Source: Panaeolus papilionaceus
Lineage: Eukaryota; Basidiomycota; Agaricomycetes; Agaricales
Reading direction: 5' to 3'
DNA length: 64,000 nucleotides
Assembly: GCA_015501605.1 (NCBI GenBank)
Contig: JADNRZ010000025.1
Location: 575,592-639,591 of the forward strand
The notes under the pieces were generated by a model. That model was not told where the DNA came from. It searched no databases and saw only the letters and a list, made by a program, of their open reading frames with translations. Both the position numbers and the translations under genes were made by a program. Of this stretch, positions 2 to 43,890 are shown piece after piece (position 1 is the first letter of the stretch; each line of letters opens with the position of its first letter).

Positions 2-905
2 AAGTCTCTCCAACACGAATCCAACAAGAACGGCAACGATTGTCCCACTCCGGTGGCTCAAACAAGCAGTGGGCTAGGTCGAATCACGATCCCCCCAAAA
101 GTAACAAGGTCAATCACCCACACATCTTCCACTACTACTAGCACGGAAGTTCACATTACCCGCAGTCAGACATCCTCTTCCACTACCGCGAGTCGGAGGG
201 AGAAGGCCCTCGAGCAGCAGCTTGAAGACGCTTTGAATGAGCTCGGCCGGGAACGAGAGTTGATTGCTCATTTGAGGAAGAGACTAAACCAAGAAGGTCA
301 TGCTAATGCTACGATTGCGGGTACTGAGCAAGCGAAGAGGGAATCCCTTTCGCAAGGGTACCGGGATCAGATCAATGGTGAGCTTTTTTTATTGTTTGAC
401 CTGTTCTTGTTTGTATGAATGGATGGAACTGATTTATTTATTCATGATAGTTCTGAACTTACAACACAAAGCACTCAAGGACGACCTTACTCGCACCCTC
501 ACATTGACCTATGCAGTGCTTACTCCTATATCGGAGGAGATCAACCGATTAAAGCAGTCGGGTGCCGATGTGGCCCGACTCGATAGTATCGTTGGTGTTT
601 ATCGCACTTCTGTTTGCAACACCTTCGATCAACTCTTGGGGACATCGACAGGTGTCACCGCCATGTCTGATCTCCTCGGTTCTGGCTTTAATGCCAGCAC
701 CTCGTCTGCGTTTGCAGCGAACGAGGGGATGTCAGCGAGGGGTGATGTGACGATTATGAGTGCGTCAGCGATGCTTGCTGCGACCTCCGCGGAACAGGAG
801 GGAAGGGAGGCTCTAGAGCTGAAGAGAGCGAGAGAGTCGGATGCGAGGGCATCTAAGGAGAGTGCAGAGTCGGAGAGACGGTCTAAAAGGACGCGAGTAG
901 CTTGA
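2..905 (+). CDS. 3' part of a coiled-coil protein gene (5' end outside window)
   Basis: An open frame runs in from the window edge, so the start codon lies upstream. Exon one ends at 377, a 73-nt intron (378-450, GTGAGC...GATAG) follows, and exon two runs 451-905 to a TGA; the frames join cleanly. The visible protein begins Ser/Thr-rich, then has a charged heptad-like stretch (around REKALEQQLEDALNELGRER) that should form a coiled coil. A helical middle follows and then an Ala/Glu/Arg/Ser-rich, basic C-terminus ending RRSKRTRVA that could act as a nuclear localisation signal. I do not recognise the family. The reading frame and intron are seen in the sequence; nuclear location is inference. 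Confidence 0.75.
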
Positions 906-1963
906 TGGAGGACGGTGTCCTCTTTTACTGCATTTTTTTCTGGGTCATGGAGATGTGATGATGGGGTGGACGACTTTGGATGAGGAGTGGTTTAACACGT
1001 CCTCTGGTCGTCTTTGCTTTCTCATCTTTCACGAGAATGCAGTTCTGTATGCTTTTTTCTGCTGCCTTTGTTGTACTTATTTTTTTTCTGGCTACCTATG
1101 CCTTGAGCTCGCCATTTCGTAGTAGTACGATAAACATGGTTATGTTCATGCATCCTCTGGCGATTTGGGACTAGTTGTTGCGATTCAACTCATCGTTTTT
1201 ACTAGTCCATGTTATGTTTTATTTCTGTCGTTAAGTTAAATTCGTGTTAACTGGTAACGGGCTGTATATCATTTAGAAATTAGTCTTTGTTAATCTACAA
1301 TAAACACGTTGTATCTATAGACGACTGGATAGGAGGGGGAAGAGCACGACGAAATATCGTCTATAGATGGTCAAGTAATCCCACCTGGAGCATCTGAGGC
1401 TGTTCATGGTCGTATATTTAACCTAATTTTACTGCAACTAACATGAAGCTCCGCTGAGAGTAGACCAGATGAGCAAGTACGGTGTAATCGATGTCAGACA
1501 TTACCCATAAGAGGATCATAAGTCGCACCCATGGACCTTGGATATCCCCAATAAAAAAGACCGCGCTGAACGGATCACTGCCCATGAATGAAAGCACAAA
1601 GGGTAAATAGGCGCTTAGTAGTGAAGAGGAAATTAATGAAGGGAAGAAATTTATTGATGAAAAGAAAGCTGTTGACGTTGAGGCTCAATTCAGTGGGTTG
1701 TGGTTCAACACGTGTCGTCATAGCTCGCGGGCATTCAAACAGGACAAAACCCAGGAACGTTTTGAAGCAGGAAAAAATGATTTATTTGACGAGTGTTGTA
1801 AAAATGTAATACAGTTATTGGTTGCATGAAGGGAAAAGTGACGGAGGAAGATGCGAGATCCAGTCGCCTTGAGCCGAGTCTAGCCGACCAGATTGTGCTA
1901 AACCATCTGAAACTGGGAAAAAATAAGCATCACAACGTCGCGGGTGAAAAAAATATAGCCAAC
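906..1963. other. intergenic, no gene supported
   Basis: Only short open frames without splice support are visible. The first 250 bases are probably the 3' untranslated region and terminator of the upstream gene (T-rich runs). The rest is AT-rich spacer up to the first secreted-protein gene and contains one small hairpin, listed separately. Confidence 0.6.
1313..1368. repeat. short perfect inverted repeat (12-bp arms)
   Basis: ATCTATAGACGA at 1313-1324 is matched by its reverse complement at 1357-1368 around a 32-nt G/A-rich spacer. It could be a terminator-type hairpin or the trace of a small element. No function is supported. Confidence 0.5.
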
Positions 1964-2278
1964 CTAGCAGTTGAGGATGGTAGATCCACAGCCAGTGACG
2001 ACCTTGTTGAACTGGTACTCCGACGAGACATGGTCGTTGTTGTAGGCAGGGCCGCGGTATCCCATCTCAGTGTTTTCCTTGCAGAACTTGATGCAGCACT
2101 TGTCGCCTTTGTTTGAAGCCCACTTGTAGGACTTGGCGGTGAAAGCGAGCTTGTGAGTTCCCTTGCAGGTGGTGAAGAAAGCAGTGGGTGTGTAGCCGTT
2201 GATGTACCAGGCTGCGAACGTGAAAGCATTAGCGCTGGCAGCAGCAGCGACGACGGTAAGGATGGTGCAGAACTTCAT
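1964..2278 (-). CDS. small secreted cysteine-rich protein, copy A
   Basis: A 104-residue protein in one coding exon. The start chosen is the ATG at 2278, which matches the starts of copies B and C; an open frame extends 18 codons further but is 5'UTR by comparison. Residues 1-18 are a signal peptide (MKFCTIL..., Ala-rich, cleavage near ANA/F), so secretion is expected. The mature part keeps the family motifs: a W near its start, a T-G-A-like turn, AKSYKW, CCIKFC, and a C-terminus with GCGS and a final Cys. It is clearly diverged from B and C. The Cys in GYRC of B/C is Gly here, while a new Cys appears earlier (TTCKGTH), so the total stays six but the pairing must differ. The family is not one I can name; effector-like or cell-surface roles are guesses. 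Confidence 0.8.
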   Translation of the reverse strand: MKFCTILTVVAAAASANAFTFAAWYINGYTPTAFFTTCKGTHKLAFTAKSYKWASNKGDKCCIKFCKENTEMGYRGPAYNNDHVSSEYQFNKVVTGCGSTILNC

Positions 2279-2415
2279 TGCTAAAAGAGAAACGAGTTTG
2301 AGAAGTATGAGTGGGAATTCAGCATCGACCATGGAAGAATAAAATATACTGAAAAGACAGAGGAGCGGGATGTCTTCAGAGTGCGAAAGCTGATGGAACT
2401 GAGAGGCAAATAGCA

Positions 2416-2426
2416 GGCCTTTTATA
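2416..2426 (-). promoter_or_regulatory. TATA box of SSP copy A
   Basis: TATAAAAGGCC on the minus strand, about 140 bp upstream of the ATG. Copies B and C have TATAAAGGGG at the same distance. The surrounding 200 bp is repeated near copy D and as an orphan block at 7640-7990. Confidence 0.6.
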
Positions 2427-2599
2427 CTGTTCCTTGGCCTTCGTCAACTGAGCACTTTGTCTTCTGCAACAAATTCAGGAGGCAGCCGAGGAATGTTGCC
2501 CACCTGGTCAGGCTCTTCAGGAGTGAAAACAGCAGGCGCTGGTGTAAGAGTTATCAGAGTCTTTCTCAAATTCAAATGGAAACCAGGTCATGAGCGATG

Positions 2600-4030
2600 A
2601 GACAACAGACATCGTATCATCATTATTGAAGTAATCTTGTCCAAAAATTCAACGTTCTCTTTAGAAATATTCTGGGAATATGTTTATCATGGCTAGTGTA
2701 GTTAAGAGTTGAATTAGTGTGATAGTTGTTAAAATGAAAGTTATCGCTTACTGACAAAATGGGTATGGCGCGACAGCGATGTTGACGTCGTTCCATTGTC
2801 GCAGGACCCACGGTGGACATCTTTTAAGCACTCAGAAGTTGGCAGGGGTTGACTATAATTCAAGTCCATCGAATGTGGTTTTGGAAATATAGGAACGTCA
2901 GAACACATTTAAAGTGGATCATTGACCCGTAGAGCTGTGACAGGAAAGTCAGTGCCGCTATTATCAATTGAGGATCGACAAGCTGGTCCCATACAATGAC
3001 TACCAGAACTTATCTTTAGAACCGTAGTCAATTCCGCTGCATGTGGACTTGGACCCACTATAATGAAGCAAGGTGTAGTTGGTTCAGAAAAATTCTAGAC
3101 CCTTGGGGTGAAAGTCGGCGTTTGCGAGTCTGCTCAAAAATTCAAGGTCAACGGGTAATATCACATAGATGAACCAAAAAGCACCCACAAAAATTGATAT
3201 CAAGCGGGTGCCCTAGAACGATCAACAGGGAAGGGTGAACTGGACGAGAAAATAAGATCGGAAGTGGAGCCAGTATACTGCGTCTGAAGGCCTGACGAAA
3301 ATGCTCACACCTCCGATCTGCTGGCGTGAAGTGACAGGATAAAACAAGGCTGCTAGATTCCTCTGCAGCGTTCGAGTAGAAGTGCGTCGATTTTATTGGA
3401 CCTTGTCTAGCTGGTTGGTTCAAAAGATATACTTTTCTTCCATGTGCACCGTAGACCCCTGCTAAGGTCGACGAGAAAAAAGTATGCACAATGTTAATTG
3501 ACACCAGAATGTTCATCGTCGATCCAGCTCCTAAAGGACAATCAGCAAATGACTCTACCCGGATAATTGACGGGCACCTACGCATAAACGGAGAGCGTCT
3601 GTCTTCTCCCGGGGTGAGCCGTGGAATTCGTCAACCTACGGGAATCTAGACAATGAACACTTCCACACCTTGGGAAGAAAAACAGGATCAGAAATGGATG
3701 AAAGATAAGAGGAAAAGAAAGAACAAGATCCTACTGGTAACAAAATATCGGTAAGCTGCCTGCAGGTGCACGTTTATCGCAGAAAAGGCATCGTATACCC
3801 CACAGATTTTTACTTTCCTTTCACAAATCAGATTGCACAAGGCTGTATACTCGTAATTTTTCAGAAAAAATCAGCTCGACTCGGATTGAATATCGTTTTC
3901 GAGATTAAGCACATTGAAGAAACGCTCGTATTGACGACATCATAGGAAAATACTGTCTGATATGTAGGTTTAATTGAAGCCAAAGCGAATGAAAACAAAT
4001 TTCGACACTCACTTTACAGGTAACTACATA
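2600..4030. repeat. duplicated non-coding block upstream of the SSP genes, first copy
   Basis: No gene is supported here. The segment about 2,600-3,140 recurs, diverged, at about 6,120-6,790 (shared stretches around the words GGACATCTTTTAAGCACTCA and AAGTTGGCAGGG). The segment about 3,820-4,030 recurs at about 6,895-7,100 (around GGCTGTATACTCGTAATTTT). The spacer between the two blocks differs between copies. This shows that the array grew by duplication of units larger than the gene. Confidence 0.6.
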
Positions 4031-32627: not shown

Positions 32628-35066
32628 TTGTTGAAGTCTCGCGTTCAAACTTTACACTGGTCTCTACCAACCTTCATCATGTTATATGTCGTGCACGCTC
32701 ACATTATATTGTTGTTCATAATTATCTCACAATGCATTCAATACTCGTCTGCTCCTTTTAACTGTGGCAATGACCGCATGACACGTTTATCATCAATGAA
32801 TCAGCTTTCATTCGTATCTCCCTCATCCTTCTTGTTAAAGGTCAATAACTTGACAAACACTACCTTCGTTGCTTGTGTACCTGACGTTCACTCTGCAAGA
32901 AGTGATTTTTATGACTCTCATTCTCTCATACCAAATGCTTTAATGCAACCTGCCCTGCAGGTACTTGGACATATGATAAAAAGTCTGTCTAATGTTGGAT
33001 TACACTATCCGCAGAAATGGATTCTAGGTACCTGGCAAGCCATTCCTGGATTCCTTGAACGTTTCTGCATTGTGCAAGCGACGCTGTTATCTGTTCCACC
33101 TCTTCATCAACTCTATTTTGTATTATTTCGCCGACGTTACTATGATCTGCCTCTGCTTATGCGGCGTTTGTCTATGAGATGTCATGACTTTCGTGCTGCA
33201 CTCCAGAAAACACGGACTATGGATGTTCTGATTTGTGAATCGCTACGTCGGTTGGCTCTTCTGGCAAGATACCATTGGGTTTTGCACTGGGCAGTATTTG
33301 TGTTGTGGGTTTGCAACGCAGTATCACTTTCCTTTTACTCCTGTTATTTGGATAACGGTACTAGATTTTTGCGTCGTAATGCATATGCAGATACTTCTCT
33401 TTTGTCGACTTTTACTCAGCATTCTGGACGCATATACCCTGATGGAGGTGGATGCCCTCGATACATATCTTTTGATGATCTTGCTCAATTTATTGATGAA
33501 GAACAGCGTGATGGATACACTCCTGATTCTAGGTTCTTATATGTCACTGCAACTGATTCCGAAGGGGCTCTTATCTATGACAAAAGTGACTATTGTGTAG
33601 TCTGTATTCCTCTTCAAGATGCTGTGAGAATAATCCCCCTTCTAAAGGCGCGTTTATTGCTTGCGACTCATGGGTTTTGTGGCCTGCAGAGGAAACCCGT
33701 TCAAGATCTTGTGTCATTATGTGCAGCACATTCTTGCTCAGTCTGTTTAAGTCAAGTTATGGTCTTCAAGAATGTCCCTTCAATTGCCAATCTCACTGCA
33801 GATCGTGTTGCTAAACACCGCAACTATGAGCCTGAGGTGGTGTCATTCTTTCGGCACCATGATTTCCCATTACCAATCTCTGACACAACCTGAGATTGGA
33901 TTATTCGGAATGTTTGTTCTAAGATGTCACCTTCCTTGCTTTCTGAGGCTGGGTGCGCAATATGTGGCCTATTAAAACCATCCAAAGATTTGTTACCCTT
34001 GAGCAAAATAGGCAAACTTTTGAGACATTTGAATGCTCCTGGCATTACCAGAAAAGAGCGACTATCTTCAGATCAGCTCATAACAGATCTGAAGGGTCCT
34101 GTTCTTGACAGAAAGTGCACAATGGCATGTCAACAGTGTCGGAGATCCCTCTTGAATGGCGCTGTTCCAAAGCTTGCTTTGGCAAATGGATTCTGGCTGG
34201 GTGATGTCCCCTCTCAGTTATCGTGCTTGTCTTATGTGGAAAAAATGCTCATCGCTCGTGTCCGTCATACTTGTGCCTATGTGAAGGTATCATCGGGTCA
34301 GCGAAAAATGAAGGCTAATATAATATCATTCAAAACCCCTATCCCAAAGATGTATTCGGTTCTGCCTCCTCCACAGGAGGACATGGATGAAGTATTAGCA
34401 GTTCTTTTTACAGGACCATGCAAACCAACATCTGCCGATCTTCTCCGTACACCAGTCTTTGTTAGACGCAATCATGTCCTCAATGCGCTCGAATGGCTAA
34501 AACTGAATCACTCAGACTATGCTGACATTGACATCTCTGCGGAAAATCTGGCTACCTACGAAGACAATCGACCACCTGTTTCCATTGAGTATCGTCAAAC
34601 AGATGTCAATAATGTACTGGAGGGCACAAGTGTTTTTGACAATGAAACGGAGGACGGCACTGAGACAGGCCCTTGCAGTTATTCGGTCCATGCACTTACA
34701 GGAGACAGTCTCGAAACTATGTTGCCATGTCAGATTAAAGCGGCTGCAATTCGTCATCTGGATGCTGGTGGCAGAATGCTTGCTGTAGGTCATGCAAAAG
34801 AACCAGAGAGCATATGGAATAACGAGCAGCTGTACCCTCAAATGTTCCCTTGGCTTTTTCCATATGGCCTGGGAGGGCTTGGCCTAGGCACACTAACTGA
34901 CACTCTCCATAAACATCACTTGTTGATGTATCATGACTTGAGATTTCAACTTGATATTGATTTTCCCTTCGTAGCTTTCAGTCACGAACAAATTAAATCA
35001 AGCACAGGTCGAAGCTTTTTGCTCGTAAACCAATCACAATTCCAGGACATGAGTGCACCTCTATGA
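32628..35066 (+). pseudogene. Helitron RepHel gene, N-terminal part (in-frame stop)
   Basis: One reading frame runs through 32628-33893, a TGA at 33891, and on from 33894 to 35066. From about 33,500 the translation has features of basidiomycete Helitron proteins: FLYVTATDSEGALIYD and YCVVCIPLQDA. It then shows CAICGLLKPSKDLLPL, CxxC pairs (CTMACQQCRRSL) and GFWLGDVPSQLSCLSYVEKM, the Cys-rich N-terminal domain known as DUF6570. The helicase-like N-terminal domain follows (MLAVGHAKEPESIWNNEQLYPQMFPWLFPYG). It is cut off at NQSQFQD by the foldback element at 35073. The region before 33,400 matches nothing I know and may not be coding. Confidence 0.75.
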
Positions 35067-35072
35067 GCCACC

Positions 35073-36256
35073 TTCATACATGAACCACTGGGTTTAGGCA
35101 GTCTGCCCTCATGTGTCCAGACTGGGTTTTGGCAGTGGGGTCTTAGGCAGTCAATCTGCAGGAGAAACATAGATAGTGGACCTTTAGAATAGATAAGAGT
35201 GAAGAGCATAGATAATGGTCCGGGTTCTTAGATTTCATGGGTAAATACATGTAAACAAACCTTCGGCCTAGATTTAGCAGGGGAAACCACAATTATGCAT
35301 TTCCGGGACACCACACCTGGATATCATGGGTGGTAGTGCTATAACATATTTCTATACATAGATATACACCTTCCTAGATAGTTTCCCCCCCGGAAATACG
35401 AGGGGAATGGGTGGATGCAGGAGGATGCATCTGGATGTAGTTTTGATTTAATTAAATGTGCCCCTATTTGCACATCAAATCTTCGTCCTAATCAGGGATA
35501 TTAGGATGATGTCATTGATTCCATTAAATCTAATAATAGCTCCTTAATTAGTCTTCGCTTTTTTAGGAAATTGGCATCACTGATGTGCTTTCAGGTACAA
35601 ATGACATCACACTAATTAATATTCCTCCCCCACCATTATTGCAGCATTTATTCCACCGCTTTTTGGGCACTTTTATATGGATATGTATATATCACTAGAA
35701 TGCTACAGTTGCCTAGTATTTGAATCTGATTTTTACTTATTTAATTCCCTCCAGTAGATTGCCCAAAACAGCTCCGCTTTTTTGATAATCAATAGCCCCT
35801 ATTTATTAGTAGCATTATTACTGCTGCATTTTCCACCGCTTTTTTGGCTCTTTTTCTGCACACCATATATACCATTAGAAAGCTATAAGTGTCTAGTTTA
35901 AGAATATATCCTTGTATCATTACTATCCTCACTGGGGACTGCATCATTCAATTGCGCTTTTTTGGTAATTAAATTAGCCCCTATCTTTAATTACATTTCT
36001 TTGTGCATCATTTGTATTTATTCCCTTTATTATTTTAATTGACATGTATATATCACTGGAAAGCTACAATCGCCTACTTTCAGAATCTGAAGACAGAATA
36101 GAAATGTTGTGCTTGTGGAAGGAGCAATTCCATTTCGCATTTTGGGTATTAGAGCGTGGGAACACCCTTTGATCCTCCTTCTCCTCCTCCCCCTTCCGCT
36201 TTTTTGGCTTCATTTCTCCACACTCCCTGCAGCTATCAACCTGAAACTTGGCACAC
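35073..36256 (+). repeat. left inverted arm of the foldback element
   Basis: Contains at least six copies of a CGCTTTTTT-type core (near 35,555, 35,656, 35,774, 35,836, 35,954 and 36,187), usually CCGCTTTTTTGG. It also has three related copies of a module around TATATATCACTGGAAAGCTACA...GCCTA...GAATCTGA (near 35,685, 35,865 and 36,047). The arm is therefore itself built from degenerate tandem units of roughly 180 bp. Confidence 0.8.
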
Positions 36257-37441
36257 CCCTTCATAAACGTTATTAAATGGCTCTTACCAGCCCAATAGTG
36301 AAAATACACACTATCTTGCTTTCCATCAACATATTAATATATATTCAATTAAATTGCTAAAAAAGCGCACCAAAATGTAAAGCTTCTGTATGATGTATGC
36401 CAGTAAATGACATTGCTATATCAATATTGCATACTTCAGTTCTGAAATCCAATGGAAGTGTATTATATATCCCTATATTTGCATGTAGAATTAGCAAAAT
36501 GGACACTCCTGTGAGTCTGGACTCCTGTGGGTTTTTCCATCAGTATTTCACTCCATATATACATCTTTAGCATTGTCTAAGCGTTCATATACACCATATG
36601 TAACGTTCCACACACCCCAATACCTGATATATTGAGCCACATTTGTAATATTGGCCATACACAAATGCAGACGTTAAAATACACTATTCTGCACTTTACT
36701 ACACCATAGCAGTCCTATTTATACTTCATAAATAGCAGGAAACGAATATATTAACTCTAGTTACACGATGCAAAAAACCCCAAGTGATTTGGACAAGTAT
36801 AGCCATCTGTATGTTCAAAATGGTGTGCAACCATCATAGTTGATGATAGGTGTTTCAAGAATACATACCATCACCACTCCATCAAACTGCTTCTGACCGC
36901 TTTTTTAAGGCTCTACCTTTCCACAATCATCCAAATCACTTCAAACCTTTTGTGAACATTACATATCATGTCTCTGCATCCATCTATACGTTCTGATTAA
37001 ATTATTTTGTCTCTGATCCTCTGTCATAAGCTTATCAGTGGAAATGTGAATGATTTTGAGACCTGCTCAGAATTCTTTGGGGGTGGGCTAGTTTTGAAGG
37101 CACGATTGAAGCGTCGTCAGAACAGTTTGGAGCATGTTGAAGCGGTCAATATTGATGAAGATATTCACAGATTACTATTCTACATACCCTGAGGTAGCAT
37201 TTAGTGTTTTCTATTCTATTACTTGATCTTTTGAAGCGGTTGAGTGTCAATTTCAATGCTTTTACATGTTATGAGTAATATTCAAACGTGTTTTGAGCAG
37301 TAGAGGAGCCAAAGGAATGTATTATTAGGTATATATGGTGCAAATATGGTATTTTGATATGTAACTGGTGAATAGAATGAGTGGAACCTCTTCAATTTGT
37401 ATATAAGCGGAGATATGGACATACATATGGTATATATAAAA

Positions 37442-38625
37442 GTGTACCAAGTTTTAGGTTGATAGCTGCAGGGAGTGTGGAGAAATGAAGCCAAAAAAGC
37501 GGAAGGGGGAGGAGGAGAAGGAGGATCAAAGGGTGTTCCCACGCTCTAATACCCAAAATGCGAAATGGAATTGCTCCTTCCACAAGCACAACATTTCTAT
37601 TCTGTCTTCAGATTCTGAAAGTAGGCGATTGTAGCTTTCCAGTGATATATACATGTCAATTAAAATAATAAAGGGAATAAATACAAATGATGCACAAAGA
37701 AATGTAATTAAAGATAGGGGCTAATTTAATTACCAAAAAAGCGCAATTGAATGATGCAGTCCCCAGTGAGGATAGTAATGATACAAGGATATATTCTTAA
37801 ACTAGACACTTATAGCTTTCTAATGGTATATATGGTGTGCAGAAAAAGAGCCAAAAAAGCGGTGGAAAATGCAGCAGTAATAATGCTACTAATAAATAGG
37901 GGCTATTGATTATCAAAAAAGCGGAGCTGTTTTGGGCAATCTACTGGAGGGAATTAAATAAGTAAAAATCAGATTCAAATACTAGGCAACTGTAGCATTC
38001 TAGTGATATATACATATCCATATAAAAGTGCCCAAAAAGCGGTGGAATAAATGCTGCAATAATGGTGGGGGAGGAATATTAATTAGTGTGATGTCATTTG
38101 TACCTGAAAGCACATCAGTGATGCCAATTTCCTAAAAAAGCGAAGACTAATTAAGGAGCTATTATTAGATTTAATGGAATCAATGACATCATCCTAATAT
38201 CCCTGATTAGGACGAAGATTTGATGTGCAAATAGGGGCACATTTAATTAAATCAAAACTACATCCAGATGCATCCTCCTGCATCCACCCATTCCCCTCGT
38301 ATTTCCGGGGGGGAAACTATCTAGGAAGGTGTATATCTATGTATAGAAATATGTTATAGCACTACCACCCATGATATCCAGGTGTGGTGTCCCGGAAATG
38401 CATAATTGTGGTTTCCCCTGCTAAATCTAGGCCGAAGGTTTGTTTACATGTATTTACCCATGAAATCTAAGAACCCGGACCATTATCTATGCTCTTCACT
38501 CTTATCTATTCTAAAGGTCCACTATCTATGTTTCTCCTGCAGATTGACTGCCTAAGACCCCACTGCCAAAACCCAGTCTGGACACATGAGGGCAGACTGC
38601 CTAAACCCAGTGGTTCATGTATGAA
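37442..38625 (-). repeat. right inverted arm of the foldback element
   Basis: Reverse complement of the left arm, with the same internal modules read as CCAAAAAAGCGG. The ends differ only in a few bases near the centre of the element. Confidence 0.85.
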
Positions 38626-38627
38626 TC

Positions 38628-41114
38628 TAGCTTACAAGGCTGATGAGTGAACATTTATTATCTGTTGATTGGCCAGTAATGGAAAATTTGGCTAGAAAAA
38701 TAGAGCGGGGTGAGCATGTGGTTCCAACTGAACCTGAGGAGAAGAAATGCTTTCAAATTCTGAATGATTTAGATGCTATGACAACAACAATGCATGGCTC
38801 AGTTGTGAGCAAGAAGGCCATGAGAAATGAAATATGGTCTTTGATCTGCAGAATTGGTGCACCTTACTGGTACATCACATGATCTCCAGCTGACGTTCAC
38901 AACCCTATATGTGTATATTTAGTGTCATCTGGTGAAAATTTTAATCCTGTGCCCTGCTTATGCTGACAGGCTGAGAGTAGTCTGCCAGAATCCAGTAGCA
39001 TGCGCCCGTTTTTTTAATTTTGTGGTTACTACTTTTATAGAGGATGTTCTTGGATACAATTCATCTAACATTGGTGCCTATGGAGTGCCCAATGGATATT
39101 ATGGTACTGTTGAGCAACAAGGCAGACTCTCCCTACACTTACATCTAATGCTATGGATAAAAGGGACCTTGTCTCCCCAGGAAATGCGGACAAACTAACT
39201 TCCGAAGATGCCGGTTGGAAGATAAAAATTACCAACTGGTTAGACTCTTGTCAAGTAGGCCAGTTCTTGACAGGCACACATGCAGAGATAAGCAAGAAAT
39301 CAACAGAAAGGAAGGCAACTGATGGGTATGTGCCTGCCACTGAACAGATGCCTACACCTCCTCCATTAAAGTGTAAGAATACCGCACATGCCAGTGAGCC
39401 CAACATGTCATGCTCTGATTGCACTGCTTATAACAATTGGTCTGCACATTACTGTGATACTGTAGACGAATTACTTCTGCTGTCTAACATGCATACCTGC
39501 ATGAGCTCACTGGGTAAGGAGGGAGTTCAGAAAAAAAGAACATTTGCATCCTCCGCATGTATGGACAACAAATGGGGAAAATGCAAAGCACACTTTCCAC
39601 ACCCCATTGTTGAAGAAACACATGTCGATAGTACTGGTTGTGTTATAATGAAAAAACTAGAACCTATGATGAATACAGTCACACCTTTGTTAACATATTT
39701 GTTTCGGTGTAATACAGATGTAACCAGCCTGGCTTCTGGTACAGCAATCAAGGCAGTTGTGATGTACATATCTGATTACATCACAAAGTCAACGCTGAAA
39801 ACACATGTTGTGTTTGATTCGATTAGGTCTTTGTTCCTTAAAAATAGTGAAATGCTTGGTGGAGGCCTATCCATGCAGGAGAAAGCACGGAAATTCATGA
39901 CCAAGGTTGTCAACATGATGAGCGCTAAGACAGAAATGGGAGCACCCTTGATTAGTATGTATCTTCTGGGACACCCAGATCACTACACTAGTCATATATT
40001 TATTCCATTTTACTGGCAGAGATTTGTATTTGAGGTGAGACATGTTTTCCAGAGAGGGGACACTGATGATGCCAACGATGAGAGAGTTGTCTTGTATAAG
40101 AAACACGATAATTTTGTGGCCTTGACACATGTTCAGGACTACATATTCAGGCCTGATATATTTGAGAATGTCTCTTTGTATGAATGGGTAAGATGTTATC
40201 AACAGGTATATTTCGGTGCTGATAACACCACTGCAACATCATCTGATGATAGGGTTGCTCAAAATGATCCTGATGAGGAACCAATTCAAGATGATGACGA
40301 CTCATCAATCTGTACTGATGACGAAGACAAAGATGAAAGCAATGAACACCCAATTAGTGATATCTGCGGAGAGGAAAAAACAAAAAGGAAATTACCTGCA
40401 AATGTTTATCGCTTACACAGTAATCATCCTCGGAGTGATAAATATGGAATGTGTTACATCAAAAAAAATAACCTTTGAGTGCCAAGCTTTATTGGAGGCA
40501 CCCTGCCCAGGTGCGATAAAGGTGACATGGATTACTACTACAGTGCAATGCTTTCTTTTTTTAAGCCATGGAGATCCGGCATGGAATTGAGAGGTCCTCA
40601 CCCCAGCTGGGAAAATGCCTTCTCTGCACACACATTCACTGAAGATGAGTTAAAGCTCATGGATAACTTTAATGTCAGACATGAATGCATGGACTCACGG
40701 GACGATTACTGCGCTCAACTAAAAGCGGGCGCAGCGCCAGAGCTTATTCAGGGTTGGGGCGAAGCAATGACTGATGCTGCAAACGAATTTGATTGTCATG
40801 CATATGGACAATCGGATGACAACTCCTTGCCTGACAACTTCACCTGACCTAACAAGTGGTATCTTCAAAAGCTGACCGATATGGGGGAACTTAATGCAGC
40901 ATTGATGCAGTCTGGATGGTCCGAAGCCCAACCAACCGTGAATAAGGCTGATGTAAACCAAGCTGAATATATCATAGGACAAATTAAATCTGGTTCGGCT
41001 TGGCATTCTGCTATTGAGAACCTCAGAAAAGCGATGCAAGATAAAAGGATCAATCTTGTGGTAGTGAAAAAACCTTCATCAAAAGTGGACCTTTCCTTTG
41101 ATGCAAGTAGTTGA
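38628..41114 (+). pseudogene. Helitron RepHel gene, middle part with Rep domain (several breaks)
   Basis: Coding sequence resumes after the foldback element with MSEHLLSVDWPV, then SVVSKKAMRNEIWSLI and WYIT. A TGA at 38880 interrupts the expected IT-SPAD motif. A frameshift near 38,955 and another near 39,188 follow. Between them is GRLSLHLHLMLWIKG, which carries the HxH metal site of the Helitron Rep (HUH) region. Further on are CMDNKWGKCKAHFPHP and YISDYITKSTLKTH, the area of the catalytic tyrosine helix (Y...DYIT...). TGA stops also fall at 40476 and 40845, and the frame shifts again near 41,100. Every break restores a recognisable downstream motif, so this was one gene that has decayed. 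Confidence 0.8.
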
Positions 41115-43890
41115 TAAGGCATACCTTTATAAATCATTTTACATCAAGGGACTATCAGAGAAGGTAACTGAGAAGGTTTCTGAATTTCAATTAAATGATG
41201 AACAAAAACAAGCCTTTCGTATTATAGCCAATCATGCAATTTCACCGAATCCCTCACAGCTAAAAATGTATCTGGGAGGAATGGGGGGCACAGGAAAGTC
41301 ACAGGTACTCAAGGCGTTGTCATCATTTTTTGCGGAGAGGGGGGAGTCCTACCGATTTGTTGTTGTCACACCGACAGGAACAGCTGCCGCCTTGGTGCGT
41401 GGCTCCACTTACCACTCAATGTTTTCCGTAAATGAGACTTCCAGTCTGTCATTAGCTGGAGTGAAATCTCGAATGCTTGGTGCTGACTATGTTTTCTTAG
41501 ATGAAGTCTCCATGCTATCAGCGAGGGACATGTATAAAATTCATAAACGGCTAGGTGAAGTTACAGGAAAATGTGACTTACCCTTTGGGGGATTAAATAT
41601 GGTCTTTGCAGGCGATTTTGCTCAACTGCCCCCTGCAATTGGGGGTGAAAGCAAAAGTCTGTATTCACAGTCCATTGGCATACATTCAACCAAGTTAGCA
41701 GACCAAGAGGATGCCATTGGAAAGGGCCTGTGGCACCAGATAACAACAGTTGTGATCCTGCGACAGAACATGCGTCAGCGTAATCAGAGCGAAGAAGACA
41801 CGAAACTAAGACGTGCATTGGAAAATTTGCGATACAAATCTTGTGATGCCAAAGATATTAGCTTTCTCCGCTCATTGAATTCAAGTTCCCTTCCTGGCAG
41901 AAAATCGATCACAGCGCCTGGTTTTAGAGATGCTCCAATCATTACCGGGACTAACGCTCATAAAGATGTGTACAATGCATTGGGATCTGTTAGATATGCT
42001 ACAGAGACAGGCAGAACCCTTGTTGACTTCTTCTCAGACAACTGCACGAATATTCCTGCCAGTGAAAAAGACCTACAGAGTAAACAAGCTTTGCAGCTTA
42101 GGTCGCTACCTGATGATGTGCAGAAAGAGTTATGGAACCAACCCACATGCTGTACAAATAAATTCATTGCTGGAAAGTTATCGCTGTGCATTGGTATGCC
42201 AGTCATGATTGGCTATAATTACACAACGGAATTATGCATGACCAGGGGTCAAGAAGGTGTTGTTGTAGGATGGCAAGATGCAGTAGGCTCTTGTGGTCAA
42301 AGAGTGTTGGATGTCCTGTTTGTGAAACTCGTCAATGCACCTGCATCTGTCTGTCTTGATGGGCTTCCCAAAGACATTGTTCCAATCTATCCAAGGTCAA
42401 ACACAATTGTTTGTTCAATGCCCAATGGAGACAAGGTGATTATTAGGAGAAAACAGGTTGAAGTGCTCCTTAACTTTGCCATGACTGACTATGCATCTCA
42501 AGGAAAAACCAGAGTGTTTAATCCTATCGATTTACTAAGTCTGACATCTCATCAAGGATATTACACAGCACTTTCGCGATGTGCAACTGCTGCAGGTACA
42601 TTGATTCTGAGGGGATTCATTTTGAATATGACCATGGGGGGCTGCTCAGGCTTCCTACACCAGGAATTTCGTGAATTAGAACTCTTGGACCTTAAAACAA
42701 TACACGAGTACGAAGGCTCGCTACCTTCATCTGTCTCAGGGAATCTGAGAAACGACATCATTGCTGAATTGCGGAAATGGAAAGGCAAATCGTTTGTGCT
42801 GGCAATCATGCATCCTTCACTCAGGTGGTCAAAAAAGGATCCATTTTTGGATTCAGAACCTATGCCTATTGTATGCGGCATTGGTGAGAAACCCATTAAT
42901 GAAGAACTGGAAGGTAGTGGCCAATTAAAACGTGACACATCAGCCACGAAAACGCAAACTACCAATAAGCGCCCATCATGTCATTCCAAGCATTTGCCAA
43001 ACACTGGAGAAAAGAGACAAAAGACAAGAGCAGACAAATTGAGTTTACAGCCTGAGGCACACTCCATTTATCTATCAGCTTACGGACAAGGTTTTAAATG
43101 GTACCGAAATAGCTGTGCATATGATGCCGTGTTGACTGTGTTTTTGTGTGTCTTTTTTGAATGTGGGCACCAATGGCCTGACCTAGCTGGAAGGATGAAG
43201 TGTCATCAGATGACTTCGCTCTTTGAAGGGTTTGCGAAGGTGTTCATGTGTTCAATATCACTTGACAGTTACCGGGAACAGTTCCGGTTGCATTGCCAGT
43301 CAGTCAATCCAGTTTCTTTTCCATATGGTCACTTCACTAGTGTCGATGCGCTACTTGAATTGTTGTTGAATGTCCAGACAAGCCCTGTTTCCACCGTTCA
43401 CATCTCCTGTCCAAATAATCATAACCCTACATGCAATTCTCTTTCCACTTATCATATCACTCCGGACAGTCACTATCAACCTTCAACTGCTGCCTGGGTG
43501 AATGCCCTGTCTCAATCTATTGCTTGTACATCCATCTGCCGTACATGTGGACAGACATGCATTTCTAAGCGACACTTTGAAACTACCCCCGAAATTTTAG
43601 CCTTCGATTGGGGATATGCAAAATGTGCTATTGATCCAGTCATTCATATATTTGTCATTGGTATGGGGTTTGTTCCATATGATCTAAAGGGAGTTATCTA
43701 CTTTGGTGGCAATCACTTCACCTCCTGCGTCATAGACCATGGTTTAAACATGTTGTATCATGATGGTCTATGTAACGAAGGCCAGATGTTCCCATTGGGT
43801 CAGCTAAACAGTGTAACTCATCTTCTTGGGAGCATACAAGCAAGAGATGCGTCTGCTGCTCTTTATGTTCAACACCATGTCTTACAGTAA
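41098..43890 (+). CDS. Helitron PIF1-type helicase with C-terminal cysteine-protease-like domain (3' part of RepHel)
   Basis: An unbroken 930-codon frame. SF1B helicase motifs: LNDEQKQAFRIIA, then Walker A GGMGGTGKSQ, TPTGTAAAL (Ia), FLDEVSML (II), FAGDFAQLPP (III), RQNMRQRN (IV), and near 42,480 the TDYASQGKTR motif with TALSRC, typical of PIF1/Helitron helicases. After a Lys/Thr-rich linker (about residues 600-660) comes a second domain with NSCAYDAVLTVF, cysteine clusters (CRTCGQTC), YFGGNHFTSCVID and LYHDG. Those match the Cys and His boxes of papain-fold deubiquitinase-like proteases. The Helitron helicase would unwind the element during rolling-circle transposition. It cannot act without the broken N-terminal half, so it counts as a remnant even though the frame is open. 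Confidence 0.85.
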   Translation: MMQVVDKAYLYKSFYIKGLSEKVTEKVSEFQLNDEQKQAFRIIANHAISPNPSQLKMYLGGMGGTGKSQVLKALSSFFAERGESYRFVVVTPTGTAAALVRGSTYHSMFSVNETSSLSLAGVKSRMLGADYVFLDEVSMLSARDMYKIHKRLGEVTGKCDLPFGGLNMVFAGDFAQLPPAIGGESKSLYSQSIGIHSTKLADQEDAIGKGLWHQITTVVILRQNMRQRNQSEEDTKLRRALENLRYKSCDAKDISFLRSLNSSSLPGRKSITAPGFRDAPIITGTNAHKDVYNALGSVRYATETGRTLVDFFSDNCTNIPASEKDLQSKQALQLRSLPDDVQKELWNQPTCCTNKFIAGKLSLCIGMPVMIGYNYTTELCMTRGQEGVVVGWQDAVGSCGQRVLDVLFVKLVNAPASVCLDGLPKDIVPIYPRSNTIVCSMPNGDKVIIRRKQVEVLLNFAMTDYASQGKTRVFNPIDLLSLTSHQGYYTALSRCATAAGTLILRGFILNMTMGGCSGFLHQEFRELELLDLKTIHEYEGSLPSSVSGNLRNDIIAELRKWKGKSFVLAIMHPSLRWSKKDPFLDSEPMPIVCGIGEKPINEELEGSGQLKRDTSATKTQTTNKRPSCHSKHLPNTGEKRQKTRADKLSLQPEAHSIYLSAYGQGFKWYRNSCAYDAVLTVFLCVFFECGHQWPDLAGRMKCHQMTSLFEGFAKVFMCSISLDSYREQFRLHCQSVNPVSFPYGHFTSVDALLELLLNVQTSPVSTVHISCPNNHNPTCNSLSTYHITPDSHYQPSTAAWVNALSQSIACTSICRTCGQTCISKRHFETTPEILAFDWGYAKCAIDPVIHIFVIGMGFVPYDLKGVIYFGGNHFTSCVIDHGLNMLYHDGLCNEGQMFPLGQLNSVTHLLGSIQARDASAALYVQHHVLQ

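Follow-up and report, generated by a model that had tools for sequence, protein, structure and literature searches.

A probable Kyakuja-type foldback transposon with unlike tips outside its inverted arms in the mushroom Panaeolus papilionaceus

Described systems closest to the element

The Kyakuja transposons of the KDZ superfamily are described in PMC12730594, in the parts covered here, as having 7-bp target duplications, CA..TG termini and no terminal inverted repeats. Two of them from Laccaria bicolor, Kyakuja-1_LB and Kyakuja-2_LB, resemble the element reported here in the 7-bp duplication, in CA..TG and in their non-inverted ends, but our element is noncoding and carries 1.2-kb subterminal arms that make up two-thirds of its length, and the covered text on Kyakuja makes no mention of arms just inside the ends. 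The same parts of PMC12730594 give an 8-bp duplication for Zisupton and for a Dileera element. The Cryptococcus elements KDZ1–KDZ3 (PMC12810828, covered in part) share the KDZ superfamily with the coding relative of our family but differ from it in having terminal inverted repeats of 139–241 bp, CxC1 instead of CxC2, lengths of about 9–11 kb, and duplications of 8 bp (KDZ1) or 4–8 bp (KDZ2 and KDZ3) as against 7 bp here. Because KDZ2 and KDZ3 gave 4–8 bp, a 7-bp duplication is a guide to Kyakuja and not proof of it.

Outside KDZ, the closest precedent for arms that are equalised within a copy is, by analogy, Galileo, a foldback element of the P superfamily in Drosophila. In the portions of PMC3573991 covered, its long arms are 98–100% alike within a copy, there is exchange among copies, and the arms contain sub-repeats; it differs in its transposase family and in its arms, which are described as terminal, as against the unlike tips beyond the arms here, and those portions do not mention inversion of the centre. 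Chloroplast genomes (PMC7145664, covered in part) likewise hold segments between inverted repeats in both relative orientations, but these are organelle genomes and not transposons, so the likeness is one of process only. Among the titles and abstracts of the matches listed, a scope outside which lie subscription papers, Repbase and most preprints, we found neither a fungal foldback KDZ family nor inversion of the centre of a foldback transposon.

The element lies in a 64,000-nucleotide stretch of P. papilionaceus DNA (the window) on contig C18, one of 71 contigs in a 50.85-Mb assembly. According to the parts of PMC8480192 covered, strain CIRM-BRFM 715 of this species was sequenced as part of a genome set made with Illumina and PacBio reads. 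We consider it very likely that the window element is a non-autonomous Kyakuja-type (KDZ) transposon in foldback form, moved in trans by a KDZ transposase and recombining through its subterminal arms.

Structure, borders and target of the window element

An earlier note on this DNA, made from its sequence alone, had described 1,184-bp gap-free inverted arms around a 1,185-bp centre, and this description holds: the arms at 35073–36256 and 37442–38625 form a gap-free inverted pair in which 1182 of 1184 positions agree. The two mismatches are at arm positions 1171 and 1180, and in a separate repeat comparison the pair runs to 1208 nt at 99%. The interior is free of stop-to-stop frames of at least 100 aa, as the note's reading of a foldback DNA transposon without a transposase would have it, and an Rfam search of the element returned zero matches at E 0.1. 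The note had also taken the palindrome ends, TTCATACATGAA, as the ends of the element; the palindrome at 35073–38625 stands, but as element borders we rejected its ends, because the sister copies run on for 17 further bp on both sides, with the left sequence differing from the right. Since these tips and a perfectly matching 7-mer, ATGAGTG, sit beyond the palindrome, the inserted unit is 35056–38642, and its parts are as follows.

33894–35055, plus strand: interrupted Helitron gene frame left of the element (DUF6570), from the frame and profile matches
35049–35055, no strand: left target-site duplication ATGAGTG, same as 38643–38649
35056–35072, plus strand: left tip CACCTCTATGAGCCACC, outside the palindrome, common to sister copies, with 9 exact 17-mers in the genome
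35073–36256, plus strand: left arm, 1184 bp
36257–37441, plus strand: centre, 1185 bp, whose direction with respect to the tips is reversed in 7 of the 16 elements compared
37442–38625, minus strand: right arm, the reverse complement of the left arm by alignment
38626–38642, minus strand: right tip TCTAGCTTACAAGGCTG, outside the palindrome, common to sister copies
38643–38649, no strand: right target-site duplication ATGAGTG, same as 35049–35055
38650–43890, plus strand: interrupted Helitron region right of the element, with a PIF1 helicase frame at 41068–43890 and frames broken in places

The two tips differ from each other beyond a few bases, and the left tip has 3 further genomic sites at 1–2 mismatches. 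The element thus has the long inverted arms around a central loop that define the foldback structural class, but the arms are subterminal, and the earlier idea of extremely long terminal inverted repeats has to be given up. Two warnings come with this layout: an element described as having no terminal inverted repeats may still carry long inverted repeats a short way in from its ends, and the true tips are overlooked when borders are set by a palindrome alone. The arms also hold diverged sub-repeats at 180-bp spacing that are 62–92% alike (35651–36223, mirrored at 37475–38047) and that recall the internal repeats in the arms of Galileo.

The reading frame across the joint was used for the window copy in place of a paralogous empty site, none of which was found in the genome, where the 400-bp left flank is single except for a 38-bp match. 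When the flanks are joined with a single ATGAGTG, the frame stays open for 77 codons beyond the joint and then meets a stop, so the host Helitron gene is not intact. The Pfam profile Helitron_like_N (PF14214, E 2.9e-8) covers residues 342–464 of the joined protein and so spans the joint at residue 388, while the left part alone matched only DUF6570. These matches support insertion of the window element into a Helitron gene, as the earlier note had placed its palindrome. Helitrons make no target duplication and end in TC..CTRR; the window element has a 7-bp duplication and CACCT..GGCTG ends, and the Helitron is only its target gene.

Copies in the genome and the Kyakuja placement

The arm has at least 41 matches in the same genome (best 40 of 225 candidates scored). 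The centre has at least 40 near-full copies, at 86–100% identity over at least 1025 of 1185 bases, and one further match of only 64 bp (both from the best 40 of 100 candidates scored). Besides the window layout, three other layouts were seen, which have the inner arm (about 376–1184 of the left arm) and the centre in common with it but differ from it in their tips and in the greater length of their outer arms. We inspected 32 loci (the window, L009–L034, L036, L038, L040, E27 and E107) for tips together with a matching outer 7-mer, and the combination of CACCT...GGCTG-type tips with a perfect 7-bp duplication was present in 19 elements, of which 17 are foldbacks. No two of these 19 duplications are the same (0 of 171 pairs equal). 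The pattern was not found at the remaining 13 of the 32 loci, several of which hold a single end only, and among which is L020, whose right end lies outside the piece fetched.

Two of these loci deserve separate mention. L033 (C14:774500-783000) has both tips but outer 7-mers that do not match, and is possibly the product of recombination between copies. L036 (C70:72500-79000) is a truncated copy, with the left tip and 354 bp of element near a reverse-transcriptase frame (RVT_1, 1.8e-11).

Empty sites were recovered for two copies. In addition to its own two halves, the joined flanks of L012 match 6 uninterrupted paralogues at 97–98% (at least 297 of 300 bp), and those of L009 match at least 40 places over 300 of 300 bp at 95–98% (all 40 scored, from 59 candidates). 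Of what the earlier note had wanted looked for on this point, the target duplication was thus found at the window and empty sites at L009 and L012, but no empty site for the window copy itself.

Near-perfect palindromes are a known type of artefact, which could arise as a chimera in the assembly or library or through polishing that forced the two arms into identity. We regard this as extremely improbable, in view of the 17 foldbacks with 7-bp duplications, the unlike tips, the copy-specific substitutions that are present in both arms, and the exact empty sites of L009 and L012; the earlier note's worry on this score is not upheld. The insertions are real, and the family is not an artefact but most likely a known kind of transposon (Kyakuja/KDZ) in a foldback variant.

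In a second subfamily, the 22-mers of the tips have 9 exact left and 12 exact right sites, zero at 1–2 mismatches and four at 3 mismatches. All 9 left tips face a right tip 1.4–5.9 kb away, 3 right tips have no left partner, and within this subfamily, to which the search was restricted, no left-left or right-right tip pairs were seen.

The earlier note had suggested searching for a relative with a transposase between the same kind of ends, and E27 (C27:260408-276095) is one. This 15,688-bp unit has tips of the window-element type and the duplication GGTGGAC, and it encodes KDZ (PF18758, 1.6e-27) and CxC2 (PF18803, 1.6e-10) in separate frames, from which we read its predicted transposase. Its layout is the same as that of the window element, with inverted arms of ~624 bp at 99.4% that lie inside unlike tips and start 65 bp from the left end and 31 bp from the right end. 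The relatives of its proteins are mushroom CxC2-KDZ proteins, one of them from Laccaria bicolor, and no TET/JBP gene was seen in the 8 of its 11 frames of at least 140 aa that were scanned (one of the 8 in part). The sequence that the window element and E27 have in common comprises the first 163 bp at 83%, the last 47 bp at 98% and, a little inside the right end, a further ~99 bp at 84%. Across the whole genome there are 134 KDZ match pieces, often several per gene, and P. papilionaceus carries a heavy load of the KDZ superfamily.

The window element has ATGAGTG on both sides and CA..TG termini without terminal inverted repeats; it codes for no KDZ transposase, which is present in E27, and is therefore read as the non-autonomous relative. 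Because of the tips, the 7-bp duplication, the KDZ-bearing E27 and the published signature, we read the element as a non-autonomous Kyakuja foldback with subterminal arms, and this placement is best read as one set by descriptions of end features rather than by a transposase tree. The earlier statement that no named fungal family with these ends was known to its author is accordingly narrowed, in that the element is not an orphan but sits beside Kyakuja in KDZ. Against the reading stand the 13 of 32 loci without a matching duplication, the spread of E27's predicted transposase over separate open frames and the confinement of the overlap with E27 to outer stretches.

Another superfamily with 7-bp duplications could be involved, such as hAT7, for which the parts of PMC12730594 covered give that length, or a P-type element like Galileo, itself a foldback with homogenised arms (PMC3573991, in the portions covered). 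We find this very unlikely, as E27, whose tips are of this type and which does have coding capacity, carries KDZ and CxC2 and not a P-type transposase, and as CA..TG without terminal inverted repeats is the published form of Kyakuja in the covered parts of PMC12730594. The 8-bp duplication of Zisupton and Dileera also differs from the 7 bp in the 19 elements. It seems improbable, too, that the inverted arms serve mainly as a putative source of dsRNA that silences related transposons. Arms of 1.2–1.7 kb would fold if transcribed, and many elements hold related arms, but with their target duplications the copies resemble mobile elements, and the window element has only its outer parts in common with the KDZ-coding E27. 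Such a role would be compatible with the Kyakuja foldback reading and does not exclude it.

Under the Kyakuja foldback reading, a KDZ transposase made elsewhere in the genome would recognise the left tip (CACCT...) and the different right tip (...GGCTG) and insert the element with a 7-bp duplication; the common tips and the duplication length make movement in trans by KDZ most likely. The sparsely described Kyakuja group would then gain a non-autonomous foldback family in a mushroom.

Two further loci were considered as possible autonomous partners. E107 (C10:1019600-1030303, duplication ATGGACC, comprising L035, L042 and L037) is 10.7 kb long, has the tips of the window element and contains a small inverted pair of 265 bp at 100% close to its right end. 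It was rejected, as its interior reads as a LINE by endonuclease, reverse-transcriptase and zinc-knuckle frames judged by eye, and it is probably a nested insertion. At L017 (C17:8000-15000) a KDZ gene fragment adjoins a 1.7-kb subfamily-2 arm that ends in an intact right tip, and no left tip was found below the fragment on contig C17; as a candidate autonomous copy it has its gene opposite to that of E27 relative to the tips and little room for the front part.

Concerted arms and orientation of the centre

We compared inner arms in 17 elements, namely the foldbacks with duplications, leaving out L013 because its second arm is short and adding L033, which has no duplication. The arms diverge by 0.13% on average within a copy (median 0) and by 6.0% between copies, and 12 of the 17 elements have zero inner-arm differences over about 707–778 bp. 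In gap-free columns, the same non-major base stands in both arms of a copy in 414 site-by-copy cases, and the arms differ in 2. The two arms of one copy are sisters in 15 of the 17 elements, the exceptions being L027 and L028, which are nearly identical copies. The arms evolve in concert inside each copy.

The earlier note had held that near-perfect arms imply recent origin or gene conversion. Youth of each copy, with no special exchange between arms, would suit the 12 of 17 copies that have no inner-arm difference, but the copies are 6.0% apart on average and yet carry the same changes in both arms. Because both arms bear the copy's own changes despite that distance, the arms have been equalised at least once per lineage, possibly at transposition, and the clustered patches and two centre orientations described below also require recombination. 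We therefore hold youth as the sole cause to be unlikely; of the earlier alternatives, exchange stands and recent origin by itself does not.

When whole arms were compared, with the tips and the innermost edge trimmed, there were 90 substitutions in 25,121 columns, and these are clustered in part, as all 32 in L019 and all 12 in L021 fall within 250 bp. Several other differences sit at the inner edge, where the arms end. The outer segment of L019 has L023 as its nearest relative in one arm (95.6%) and L016 in the other (98.0%); in the next segment inward both arms have the same nearest relative, which is the pattern that a patch from another copy would give.

The unlike tips allowed us to turn 16 elements into one orientation (L013 and L024 were dropped, their centres being incomplete), and relative to the tips the centre is forward in 9 of the 16 and inverted in 7. 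The window element aligns with L009 on the plus strand end to end at 95.3%, whereas with L011 only the arms align on the plus strand and 18–3570 aligns on the minus strand at 95.4%. L016 and L018, the second-closest pair by their arms, have opposite centre orientations. At least 5 orientation changes are needed on the centre tree and likewise on the arm tree, while shuffled orientation labels need 5.43 on average, with 508 of 1000 shuffles needing 5 or fewer. No signal of inheritance in centre orientation was detectable among the 16 copies, which agrees with frequent turning but at this number of copies is weak evidence on its own. Some of the flipped states could come from ectopic exchange of ends between copies.

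The concerted arms and both centre orientations together lead us to a model in which the arms recombine with each other and the tips remain different. Gene conversion between the inverted arms would keep a copy's arms matched, crossing over between them would turn the centre round, and exchange with the arms of other copies would leave patches. The tips would stay unlike because transposition would presumably fail in an element whose tips were both left or both right. The concerted identity, both orientations and the patches are there in the copies; the mechanism of recombination, and whether it acts in place or during transposition, we infer from them. With its many copies, unlike conserved tips and self-equalising arms, the family offers a natural test system whose sequences can be used to trace conversion, inversion and inter-copy exchange.

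It is also conceivable, though we doubt it, that the arms are a working part of the transposon, with a folded or annealed intermediate that copies arm onto arm and flips the centre at random in each transposition or replication. Homogenisation and flip-flop would then be part of the life cycle itself, and the transposase would still meet two distinct tips.

By Jukes-Cantor means over 120 pairs, divergence in the centre is 1.9 times that in the inner arm, and the centre is the more divergent in 116 of the 120. Conversion could restrain the divergence of the arms relative to the centre, and constraint may also be a cause of the lower value in the arms.
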